Shown in pieces: positions 20,355 to 24,028 of a DNA stretch of 39,948 bases. The translations under genes and the position numbers were made by a program. The DNA comes from Planctomycetota bacterium. GTDB taxonomy: Bacteria > Planctomycetota > Phycisphaerae > Phycisphaerales > SM1A02. The notes beneath the pieces were generated by a model. The model saw only the letters and a list, made by a program, of their open reading frames with translations. It was not told the origin of the DNA and did no database searches. Position 1 is the first letter of the stretch. Every line of letters starts with the position of its first letter. The stretch is taken from positions 1 through 39,948 of the forward strand of contig JACNLO010000040.1 of assembly GCA_014381555.1 (NCBI GenBank), read 5' to 3'.

Positions 20355-21482
20355 GTGAGAAAATTGACACTGTACATAATGAAGAGAATGGTATTCAACT
20401 TTGTTGTCCTCTTTACACTCTTCTTTTTACTTGGAGCAGTAATTGACATTATTGTGAATCTTGATGAATTTCACAAAATTGCAGAAGTTACTTCTGAAGA
20501 TGGAGATTTCCTCGCACAAGTACTTGCACTCCTAAGAGTTGCGATTGGGTTTGAAGGCCCTCGATTGTTCCAAGTTTTTTCATACTTGCATGGCGTGATA
20601 GCAGTTGGAGCAATGGGTTTCACAGCAGCAAATATGTTACGGTCGCGTGAATTTGTTGCGATCATGGCTGCAGGAATAAGTCTTCGGCGAATTTCGTTTC
20701 CGTTCCTATATGTGATGGTCGGCATCAGTGTTTTGGCTCTCTTGAATCAAGAATATATGTTGCCAAGAGTCGCGCCATTGTTGTTGAGGAACCACCAGGA
20801 ATCGGGTGGAAAAACTGTTTCCTCGTTTTCGATTCCGTTTACACCAGATCAAAGCGGGGCATTACTTCTTTCGCCATCCCTTAACCCAGAAACAGGTGTT
20901 ATGGAAGAACCATCGTTCCTTGAGCGAGATGAAAAGGGACGGATGATTCGACAAGTACGGGCATCAAGTGCAAAGTGGGATTCAAAAACAAATGCAGGTT
21001 GGATTCTTGAGGAGGGGCTGGTAGTTCTTATTTCGTTTGATGAGTCAACTGGTCAAGCAACAACTTCCATGCCATTGGAGGTTGAATTTTATGAAACGGA
21101 ATTGTCACCATATATTCTGACTCTACATAGATACGGCCAATATGTTGGGATGCTTGGTATGTCACAGTTAAACAACATGCTCAATGCTGCAGGTTCATTT
21201 GACGAACCAATGCTCAGACGGCATTGGTATTCTCGGTTTGCTTCGATTGCATTGAATGTTTTAGCCATGATGATTGTAATTCCTTTCTTCGTTACGAAAA
21301 ACGCGGTTGTTGTTTCAAGACAAGCGATTAAGTGTGGTGGGATTGTGTTGACAATATTGTTTGGTGGAATGGTGGCGATGCTTATGCCTTTGGAAGGAAT
21401 CCCCGCAGTAGTGAGCGTGTTCCTCCCAGCAATAGTACTTATTCCAATTGCATTATTTCGAGAGATTACGATTCAAACTTGA
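20355..21482 (+). CDS. lptG: LPS-export permease, LptG-like (YjgP/YjgQ family)
   Basis: A protein of 375 residues, the normal family size. The start is GTG (20355-20357), one base after the lptF stop, with no ATG at a better position. The N-terminal helix (NFVVLFTLFFLLGAVIDIIV), the motif NMLRSREFVAIMAAGISLRRI (coupling helix), a periplasmic domain (about 130-260) and three C-terminal helices (SIALNVLAMMIVIPFFV onwards) match LptG. It is the second permease half of the LptB2FG exporter in the inner membrane. Its last 30 bp overlap the end of the convergent SurA-like gene, so both stop codons lie inside the other gene. Confidence 0.86.
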   Translation: MRKLTLYIMKRMVFNFVVLFTLFFLLGAVIDIIVNLDEFHKIAEVTSEDGDFLAQVLALLRVAIGFEGPRLFQVFSYLHGVIAVGAMGFTAANMLRSREFVAIMAAGISLRRISFPFLYVMVGISVLALLNQEYMLPRVAPLLLRNHQESGGKTVSSFSIPFTPDQSGALLLSPSLNPETGVMEEPSFLERDEKGRMIRQVRASSAKWDSKTNAGWILEEGLVVLISFDESTGQATTSMPLEVEFYETELSPYILTLHRYGQYVGMLGMSQLNNMLNAAGSFDEPMLRRHWYSRFASIALNVLAMMIVIPFFVTKNAVVVSRQAIKCGGIVLTILFGGMVAMLMPLEGIPAVVSVFLPAIVLIPIALFREITIQT

Positions 21483-22403
21483 CGTTCGTTGCAAATCAAG
21501 ATCGATGATATCTACACGAGTTCTTTGGATGTAGGATTTTGCAAGATTTTCCATAAGAAATCGCTCTTGAGCAAAAATAGCGAGACGACGCATCTCTGGC
21601 TCAACTTCATCGAATACAACATTTGATGAAGTTGGTTCATCTGTTACTTCAAGGATAACCCATCGATCTCCAATAAAAATAGGGTCAGAGATTGTATTCA
21701 ACTCTAAAGTTGAAATAGCTTCTCGGATTGGTGATGGCCAAGTTGGGTCAGAGGTAGAAATTGGATTTACTCTGCCACCTCTGCTAGCACTCGAATCGAT
21801 GGACTTCTCAATTGCAAGATCGGCGAAAGATATTCCGCGTTTTAAATCAGAGAGAACATCGTTTGCTTCATCAAGTGTTGAAATAACAATAAGACGTGTC
21901 GGGTATGCTGGACCATGTACGATTGAAAACATCCTCTGAACCGCTTGAGAAGTTATATCGACTTGGTTTTGAACAAGTTTTCGAAGAGCAGCATTTCTCC
22001 AAAGAAGTTGAGACTTTCTGTAGTTTCCAAAGCCCCTAGCTTTCAAAATGTTGTCAAATTCATTTTCACTTAGATTAGATGAAACAATCGAGAGGTTCTG
22101 CTCCTCTATTTGAATATCTTTTGGAAGAATTTTTACCCCTTCATTTTTCAACTCAGCAATGATCGCAATTTTCAGAATGTAATCTTCAAGAATCTCTTGA
22201 CCACCGAGTTCGATGAGAGATGGCCAAAGATCTTCTTGTCGAATCGCAGTTGTGTCGATAATTGCAACGATTGGAGATTTTAATATTTTGGGTGTAGTTG
22301 TTTTTGCAATAGTGTACTGTTTTTGTTTTTGGCACCCCAAAAGAGCACAAATGGCACATAACAGGATGGTGGTTTTCAAGGTTACAGTGGTTTTGAATAT
22401 CAT
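21453..22403 (-). CDS. SurA/PpiC-like peptidyl-prolyl isomerase lipoprotein
   Basis: A protein of 316 residues. The signal peptide (KTTILLCAICALLGC) ends in lipobox LLGC, so it is membrane-anchored in the periplasm. The N-terminal part (about 50-165) is helical and SurA-like (WPSLIELGGQEILEDYILKIAII). A parvulin-like domain follows from about residue 170: YPTRLIVISTLDEANDVLSDLKRGISFADLA, ending with ISDPIFIGDRWVILEV. It probably helps fold outer-membrane proteins. The isomerase core is recognisable, but several catalytic residues cannot be checked by eye. It is convergent with lptG (30-bp overlap) and divergent from the broken gene at 22387, whose start lies within its 5' end. The two meet in LPS and outer-membrane biogenesis, a sensible pairing. 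Confidence 0.8.
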   Translation of the reverse strand: MIFKTTVTLKTTILLCAICALLGCQKQKQYTIAKTTTPKILKSPIVAIIDTTAIRQEDLWPSLIELGGQEILEDYILKIAIIAELKNEGVKILPKDIQIEEQNLSIVSSNLSENEFDNILKARGFGNYRKSQLLWRNAALRKLVQNQVDITSQAVQRMFSIVHGPAYPTRLIVISTLDEANDVLSDLKRGISFADLAIEKSIDSSASRGGRVNPISTSDPTWPSPIREAISTLELNTISDPIFIGDRWVILEVTDEPTSSNVVFDEVEPEMRRLAIFAQERFLMENLAKSYIQRTRVDIIDLDLQRTSSLNRNLSK

Positions 22404-23073
22404 TACAAAGCAAAGGATACTCGTCTGCCCGATTTGTGGGGAGACTCAGAACGAAACTTCGGTATGTAGAGTGTGTAGCAACTCACTCGATGTGGGTGGC
22501 TTATTGTTTGCTGAGGGTGGAATAGGTCCTTGGTGGATAAGGGATGAAGATTGTCCCTTTCTCCCAGGAATGACATATGACTCCTTCGCTGAGATGGCCA
22601 AAAATGGCTAAATTGAACGTCATACGATTATCAGGGGACCAACGACTCGACAACTTTGGAAGGTGGCAAGAAGGGTGCTTGGGATTTCTCACCTCTTATG
22701 GAGGTGCCGCAGTTGTGGGGGAGCATGTTGCACAAAAAGACCGCAGATGTGGATCATGCGATGTTGCATTTTTGTCCTATCGTGATTGAAATAATCTTGG
22801 AGTTGATATTGCAAGACCATCTGAGGGAAAAGTAGACGGGATGTCGTCATTTCTCTCTGATACATCAATTATTGATACGTAGTCAACGCCATTGCCTTTA
22901 CCAAAAGCTACAGAATCATCGAGCAAAAGTAAGGACGATTCCGTTGGCTCTCCACAATTACATGCTTTGCAGAGAAGAATCCAACAGTCGTACAGGCAAT
23001 ACGAATCCTTTCTGTCTTTTTGGTAATAAGTACCATTGCACTTATTATCGCAATTGTGATGTTGTCGTATTGA
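22387..23073 (+). pseudogene. Broken zinc-ribbon, GYF-like, membrane-anchored protein gene
   Basis: The original protein can be read from end to end across five lesions. Segments in order are: an N-terminal zinc ribbon (CPICGETQ then CRVC); a conserved GIGPWWIRDEDCPF block; in-frame TAA (22609-22611); RGPTTRQLW and VLGISHLL (22633-22695) in the same frame; a +1 shift in G5 (22717-22721); a second zinc ribbon ending in CGSCDVAF; in-frame TGA (22787-22789); about 30 residues; in-frame TAG (22880-22882); a polar linker with LQRRIQQSYRQYESF; a -1 shift in T5 (23017-23021); a final membrane helix and TGA (23071-23073). The start is uncertain: GTG 22387 with AAGG before it is one candidate. Similar proteins occur in planctomycetes. 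Pseudogene, heavy sequencing error or recoding are the alternatives. Confidence 0.75.
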
Positions 23074-23266: not shown

Positions 23267-23716
23267 ATGGGAATGCAAGTACAAACGACTCGCTTCGGCA
23301 CCGTAGAGGTTGATGACAACCGAATTATAGAGTTTCCGTCTGGATTGTTGGGATTCTCAAGTTACACACAGTACGCATTGTTACAACCAGACAATGATGG
23401 CTTGTTCTTTTGGTTGCAATCAACAGAGGCGGCAGAGTTGGCTTTCGTTGTAACAGACCCATCGACTTGGGTGCCTGATTACCAAGCAACAGTTCGTAAA
23501 GAACAGATGAGCGCTCTTGAACTCGAAACATTAGAATCAGCACAAACATTTGTCATAGTAAATAAATATGACCAAACATTGACAGTGAATTTACAGGGGC
23601 CAATTATCGTGAACTTAGCGAACCATCATGCGATTCAACTTGTACTCGCAGATAAACGGTGGACAACAAGGCACGAAATCGTTCGACTTTCAGCCCAGGA
23701 ACGGTTGACTGCATAG
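23267..23716 (+). CDS. fliW: Flagellar assembly factor FliW (CsrA antagonist)
   Basis: A protein of 149 residues, the usual size. VDDNRIIEFPSGLLGFSSYTQYALL is the conserved N-terminal FliW block, followed by PDNDGLFFWLQSTEAAELAFVVTDP and the C-terminal VNLQGPIIVNLANHHAIQLVL. In other bacteria FliW binds flagellin and CsrA alternately, so that free FliW sequesters CsrA and allows flagellin translation. AAGGA (23257-23261) is five bases before the ATG; a second in-frame ATG is at 23273. csrA follows after 78 bp on the same strand, the classical module. No flagellin or other flagellar structural gene is present in the window. Confidence 0.93.
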   Translation: MGMQVQTTRFGTVEVDDNRIIEFPSGLLGFSSYTQYALLQPDNDGLFFWLQSTEAAELAFVVTDPSTWVPDYQATVRKEQMSALELETLESAQTFVIVNKYDQTLTVNLQGPIIVNLANHHAIQLVLADKRWTTRHEIVRLSAQERLTA

Positions 23717-23730
23717 TTTTTTTGATACAC

Positions 23731-23794
23731 ACTCACCTAAGGATGGGTGAGTACGTCGCAAACATTGCGACGCACCTTGAGGAAGGATTCGATC
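23731..23794 (+). promoter_or_regulatory. csrA leader with two hairpins and GGA sites
   Basis: Hairpin 1 (23731-23752) has a perfect 7-bp stem, ACTCACC with GGTGAGT, and loop TAAGGATG, placing AGGATG in the loop as CsrA prefers. Hairpin 2 (23754-23772) has a perfect 8-bp stem, CGTCGCAA with TTGCGACG, and loop ACA. Two more GGA motifs (23781 and 23785) form the strong ribosome site GAGGAAGG eight bases before the ATG. Together these suggest CsrA autorepression. A T7 run directly after the fliW stop lacks a hairpin before it. Confidence 0.6.
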
Positions 23795-24028
23795 ATGCTA
23801 GTGTTATCACGCCATAAGGACGAAACAATTATGATTGGCGACGACATTGAATTAACAATCGTGGACATCCGTGGTGACAAGGTACGGGTTGGTATTAAAG
23901 CGCCATCCTCAATACCTGTTCATCGTAAGGAGGTTTATGATGCGATTCGACAAGAGAATGAAGGCGCTTCGACCTTCAACAAAGCAGACTTGCATCAAGT
24001 CAAAACTCCAAGAATTGCAACTCTATAA
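23795..24028 (+). CDS. csrA: Carbon storage regulator CsrA
   Basis: The start is ATG 23795, which gives the family's invariant N-terminus MLVLSRHKDETIMIGDDI and has GAGGAAGG eight bases upstream; an upstream in-frame ATG at 23747 would add 16 spurious residues. A protein of 77 residues, slightly longer than the 61 of E. coli CsrA because of a polar tail. RNA-binding residues are conserved near the N-terminus (L4, R6 region) and in VHRKEVYDAI (the catalytically cited Arg44 equivalent). It dimerises and binds GGA motifs in mRNA leaders to block ribosome access. It is paired with fliW and convergent with pgi, with only 26 bp between stop codons and no clear terminator. Confidence 0.95.
   Translation: MLVLSRHKDETIMIGDDIELTIVDIRGDKVRVGIKAPSSIPVHRKEVYDAIRQENEGASTFNKADLHQVKTPRIATL

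Follow-up and report, generated by a model that had tools for sequence, protein, structure and literature searches.

A very probable unitary pseudogene at the likely remnant of a flagellar gene cluster in a planctomycete genome

Background

When a gene can be read as one protein only across several stop codons and frame shifts, is it a gene in decay, a local fault of the assembly, a source of a shortened product, or a gene translated by recoding? This question is raised by a locus on a planctomycete contig of 39,948 bases (C90), which was analysed over its whole length and is referred to here as the window. The contig belongs to a genome of 1.99 Mb in 91 contigs that is 97.7% complete. An earlier sequence-only reading had described, at 22387-23073, a zinc-ribbon membrane protein gene interrupted by three in-frame stops and two homopolymer frame shifts. 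It favored a young pseudogene, with programmed recoding as a less likely explanation, and proposed a search for intact copies in related genomes and an analysis of dN/dS. The bridged reading is present in the sequence, and the locus was named znr.

Results

The znr pseudogene, the disrupted ortholog of a gene for a membrane protein with a double zinc ribbon, occupies positions 22402-23073 of the plus strand and retains about 223 readable codons. All five lesions described earlier were found where they had been placed. In the frame of position 22387 (frame 0), a TAA stop at 22609-22611 falls in a column that is variable in relatives (E, D, K, N, T). A run of five G residues at 22717-22721, inside the second zinc ribbon, contains one extra base, and this +1 shift moves the reading into frame 1, where a TGA stop at 22787-22789 replaces an Arg found in 12/12 relatives and a TAG stop at 22880-22882 falls in a column with Q, T or C. 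A second shift returns the reading to frame 0; it is opposite in direction to the first, but its assignment to a run of five T residues at 23017-23021 is approximate, as it lies in the variable tail of the protein. The bridged frame terminates at TGA 23071-23073. The 17 residues past the second shift are hydrophobic, agree with relatives at 3-7 of 15-17 positions, which is as weak as the rest of the variable tail, and end one residue short of the proteins of relatives G003 and G012. Each stop does lie a single substitution away from a sense codon, as any stop codon does, and this is uninformative. The start at 22387 has to be revised: the conserved start is at 22402, where all 12 relatives have M, encoded by ATG, and where the window has ATT (22402-22404). 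Loss of the start codon is a sixth lesion, overlooked in the earlier description.

Searches with the bridged query identified znr as one intact open frame, at the same place, in 12/12 other genomes of the genus (E = 6e-61 to 1e-94), as the proposed comparison of related genomes had sought. The bridged protein aligns along its length to the intact gene in all of them and is coherent, as had been claimed. In the reverse search, an intact relative's protein recovered pieces of the window at E = 1.2e-51 and 3.1e-34; the values at which the two longer window pieces match the bridged query (E = 1.8e-75 and 6.1e-62) reflect self-identity only. The nearest orthologs are those of G003 and G012, at 64% identity, and the two closest relatives by znr are the Phycisphaerae bacterium MAGs SI073_bin8 and SI047_bin22, which bears out the planctomycete origin presumed in the earlier reading. 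A TGA flagged in the znr of G002 precedes its ATG and hence is no internal stop. In the window's own assembly (97.7% completeness), the window pieces are the only matches and a second copy was not found. At the level of the family, 76 of 181 genomes carry znr, with stops inside the match only in the window copy, and no znr relatives were found in viral contigs. An intact syntenic ortholog in congeners, a destroyed frame and start, and no second copy found are together the marks of a unitary pseudogene.

Intact znr encodes two zinc ribbons, each built on paired CxxC motifs and separated by a GPW...RGPTTRQLW block. A hydrophobic stretch, which was modelled as helical, lies at the C terminus, and all four CxxC pairs are conserved without exception in the 12 relatives. 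On the intact G003 protein, the Pfam models DZR and DZR_2 scored below their gathering cut-offs (22.5 vs 27.3 and 23.1 vs 27, respectively), and a distant znr relative gave a Pfam GYF_2 match at E = 0.22. Structure prediction of three sequences returned a mean pLDDT of 45, with the C-terminal helix (residues 186-222) as the only confident part.

One alternative is an artefact of sequencing, assembly or strain mixing. The real genome, or some of the strains, would then carry an intact znr and the consensus would be locally wrong, which suits a MAG in 91 contigs and the position of two lesions in homopolymers. A background test with 758 open frames of at least 120 residues set 1.02 Mb of relatives' DNA against 529 kb of the assembly, including the window; matches whose best piece was less than 35% identical were dropped, and 346 of 376 queries were kept. 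Among the 156 matched places (53,881 codons, some of them in shadow frames), a stop or a change of frame turned up in 18. Over-extended starts explained 8 of these flags, shadow frames opposite or overlapping other genes explained 9, and the remaining one is znr. Such lesions are therefore not spread over the tested part of the assembly, and general sequencing error is very unlikely because only one of 156 tested gene-sized matches is really broken. Within the window, 7 of 37 matched places were flagged, six as over-extended starts or antisense shadow frames and the seventh as znr; the earlier statement that all other genes of the window are intact stands for these 37 places, and it is covered only for genes with a match in relatives' DNA. 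An error confined to this locus would have to account for six lesions in 0.67 kb and none in the other really tested genes of the 529 kb. Moreover, three lesions are stop codons and one is a start change, none of these being homopolymer slips, and the flanking genes are intact on both sides. We regard an artefact as quite improbable.

A shortened product, comprising the N-terminal zinc ribbon up to TAA 22609, might still be made from a non-ATG start, given that the piece before this stop is 71-73% identical to G003 and G012 and that GTG or TTG codons occur just upstream in frame. However, the later pieces match at least as well at positions conserved among relatives (78-81% from the first stop to the first shift, 77-80% between the second and third stops), the conserved ATG is lost, and the product would lack its second ribbon and membrane helix, which makes this reading very improbable. 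Programmed recoding would require three stops to be read through and the frame to be changed twice for the full protein. It fits a bridged reading that can be aligned along its length, but it is rejected with next to no probability left to it, because no relative needs it (the sites occur in 0/12 congeners, and in the family the window copy alone has stops inside the match) and because the start, the stops and the frame have all been hit in one lineage, in an assembly whose other tested genes show no readthrough.

The young pseudogene favored by the sequence-only reading is borne out by the intact ortholog in 12/12 congeners, the additional loss of the start, searches that found no second copy and the single broken place among 156 matches. 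We conclude that znr in the window is very probably a unitary pseudogene, recently dead and left over from a flagellum cluster.

The start region carries a further trace of the loss. On the minus strand, at 21453-22403, lies a divergent and intact gene for a PPIC-type, surA-like isomerase, which matches Pfam Rotamase over the cut-off, has a signal peptide with a lipobox by eye, and keeps its start. In 12/12 relatives a CATG tetramer allows the ATG codons of znr and the isomerase to overlap head-to-head, with the minus-strand isomerase frame open from this tetramer for 305-313 residues. The window tetramer (22401-22404) is CATT: the isomerase start and a frame of 316 residues are retained, and the znr start is gone. 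Such a half-lost tetramer is expected if only the isomerase is still selected, as far as a single site can tell. With the tetramer shared as in the 12 relatives, the upstream control region of each gene would sit inside the coding start of the other. The znr protein begins M-A/S-K-Q in the genus, and 9 of the 12 relatives have a -10-like TACAAT shortly 5' of the znr ATG, where the window reads TACAGT; this motif was not counted as evidence because the stretch doubles as the isomerase coding start. Outside the genus, the isomerase is divergent and adjacent to znr in 14 of 18 distant loci, and the locus or contig may end early in the others.

How recently the gene died was approached through conserved positions. 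The window copy has changed at 5 of 60 columns that are invariant in the 12 relatives (the start, the TGA at the Arg column and three others), compared with 0-3 changed invariant columns when each relative was left out in turn. When neutral change of a relative's gene was simulated, three stops with 4-6 changed columns were commonest at 3-8% divergence, and this rough simulation suggests a neutral divergence of about that size since znr was lost. Even in this range, at least three stops with no more than six changed invariant columns occurred in 2-6% of runs, and at the best-fitting divergence in at most 4-6%; the number of stops is rather high given how few other changes there are, and chance can explain this.

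The proposed dN/dS analysis, run as branch tests over 13 tips and 10 control genes, gave for the window branch a comparison of omega 0.161 vs 0.084 (2dlnL 1.97, not significant, with synonymous sites saturated), which does not establish relaxed selection statistically. An omega of 1 over the whole window znr branch was rejected (2dlnL 10.3), a result that is itself affected by saturation and that fits a late death. Other tips gave absurd values, and 5 of 13 tips and some controls deviated at least as much as the window; the branch omega tests are uninformative because synonymous sites are saturated. The control alignments excluded lptA of G009 and lptB and o26 of G010 for coverage, and the isomerase of G006 because its extended match contains a stop, although the gene's own frame is open. 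The length of the window znr branch was 0.40, compared with 0.25 in ten concatenated neighbours, and since this ratio of 1.6 is also reached by other tips, there is no evidence of a speed-up. A codon-position test found no excess change at invariant bases in the window znr. Together, these results suggest that most of the branch passed under constraint and that the gene died late.

The surroundings of znr indicate where it came from. All 13 genomes of the genus, the window's included, have the order lptB, isomerase, znr, fliW, csrA. In the window, fliW (23267-23716, plus strand; Pfam FliW, 4.4e-35) is intact and adjoins znr, as it does in 13/13 genomes, followed by an intact csrA (23747-24028, plus strand; Pfam CsrA, 3.3e-24); no match to flgI, flgN, flgK or flgL was found between znr and fliW in 13/13. 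Eight stretches, one from each of eight other genera of the family, have the order znr, flgI (6), flgN (7), flgK (8), flgL (8), fliW (8) and csrA (8), and the isomerase is divergent upstream of znr in 7 of them; the flg names were assigned with Pfam and NCBIfam on two stretches, whose proteins were the queries for the eight. Outside the genus, 38 pairs of znr and FliW that share a contig were noted; in 37 of them the two lie within 20 kb of each other, and the median distance is 9.3 kb. Profile searches for Flagellin_N and Flg_bbr_C detected neither in 13/13 genus genomes; the same models matched 4 of 14 control genomes and detected FlgL and FlgK in a family relative. The flagellar order is present in 8/8 stretches outside the genus and the structural genes are gone in 13/13 genomes within it; therefore znr is the head gene of a flagellar cluster, the middle of which was most likely deleted before the genus diversified.

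This position and a partial co-occurrence with FliW suggest that znr may work for the flagellum. The 181 family genomes comprise 70 with both znr and FliW, 6 with znr only, 61 with FliW only and 44 with neither, as raw counts that are uncorrected for kinship and include many incomplete genomes. That FliW so commonly occurs in the absence of znr weighs against the link. In genus g44, 12/12 tested genomes are without FliW, retain the isomerase and lack znr. The genomes of this genus (G065-G083) are small, at 1.6-2.9 Mb, and 19/19 listed are without znr.

Although neither flagellin nor hook genes were detected in it, the window's genus retains FliW, CsrA, FlhA, FlhF and a sigma factor. In the window genome, fliP-fliR-flhB-flhA-flhF and the sigma factor are kept together (L150:552-7810, minus strand; G000:C87), and a FliF-like match is present, as in 8 of 13 genus genomes. 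From its gene content, the window genome is predicted to encode an export gate without a detectable filament or hook. FliW, encoded in the fliW-csrA region (23267-24028) of the window, ranks with the most strongly conserved proteins around znr, with 76-92% identity to the 12 congeners. In 6 of 13 genus genomes the FlhA (FHIPEP) match is to the C-terminal part only and shares a single open frame with an FlhF-like SRP54 GTPase (minus strand, L111:12904-15402 and L151:4499-6907; also in G003, G007, G008 and G010, at L152, L157, L158 and L160), with Pfam run on two of the six genomes. In the four genomes with a long enough stretch, fliP, fliR and flhB are not beside the fused gene. In the species tree, each of the three fused pairs neighbours a clade with unfused genes, and the FlhA-C and FlhF gene trees conflict over whether there was a single fusion event. 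One FlhA match (G007:C96:2425-3225; L157) contains a TAA near the contig end and is either a broken gene or a contig-end artefact.

Discussion

The lesions and the gene order are observed; the reason for the decay of znr is one that we infer. Most likely, znr served the flagellum and its constraint weakened when the genus lost filament and hook. Flagellum loss alone is insufficient for the death of znr, because the gene is intact in 12 congeners that also have no flagellum. These lineages probably retained znr, perhaps along with FliW-CsrA, because some residual reason remained. If that reason lapsed in the window lineage, null mutations, both point mutations and homopolymer slips, would no longer have been removed by selection, and the divergent isomerase, staying under selection, would have preserved its half of the start tetramer.

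The locus clearly shows a gene in the process of dying, an ordinary decay caught mid-course. It also places a step in the dismantling of a flagellum, in which structural genes went first, znr is going now and fliW-csrA is still kept. The gene order ties a planctomycete protein family without a name to the flagellum, and its function is testable in flagellated relatives. The pseudogene itself is of modest interest, and the retained flagellar regulators around it are of more. Flagellin is the known partner of FliW; that the genus retains FliW-CsrA although no flagellin was detected in it prompts one to ask what function FliW has there. Within the literature searched, no paper addressed znr or FliW-CsrA in non-flagellated planctomycetes in its title or the start of its abstract. 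It is conceivable, though doubtful, that znr, FliW, CsrA, the sigma factor and FlhA/FlhF form a flagellar regulatory module put to new use, of which the window genome would be a natural knock-out of one part; FliW would then sense something other than flagellin.

The znr pseudogene resembles the unitary pseudogenes of small bacterial genomes in having the same single ortholog intact in relatives, in combining start loss, stops and shifts, and in lying between intact neighbours. There is no difference in kind, and the half-lost head-to-head start tetramer is an added detail here.

A second comparison is with YvyF, a zinc-ribbon protein, which NCBIfam names a flagellar region protein (TIGR03826). 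Against this model the intact G003 protein scored 13.5 bits, compared with a cut-off of 124.15 (E = 0.052, residues 7-31 only), which is far below what membership in the family requires. The gene sits like yvyF, although the model does not support its being a yvyF: in 8/8 family stretches outside the window's genus, znr heads a run ending in flgK-flgL-fliW-csrA, the operon position indicated for yvyF in an account of Bacillus subtilis (PMC8849057). It differs from YvyF in its C-terminal membrane helix and its divergent isomerase neighbour, and 6 of the 8 stretches include flgI in the run.

Lineage-wise loss of flagellar genes, as seen here, is also indicated by accounts of degenerative flagellar evolution in Actinobacteria (PMC10746217) and of freshwater Planctomycetes in which flagellar genes are absent by habitat (PMC6461901). 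Unlike the cases as outlined in those accounts, the fliW-csrA regulators and the head gene znr have here outlasted the structural genes of the same cluster.
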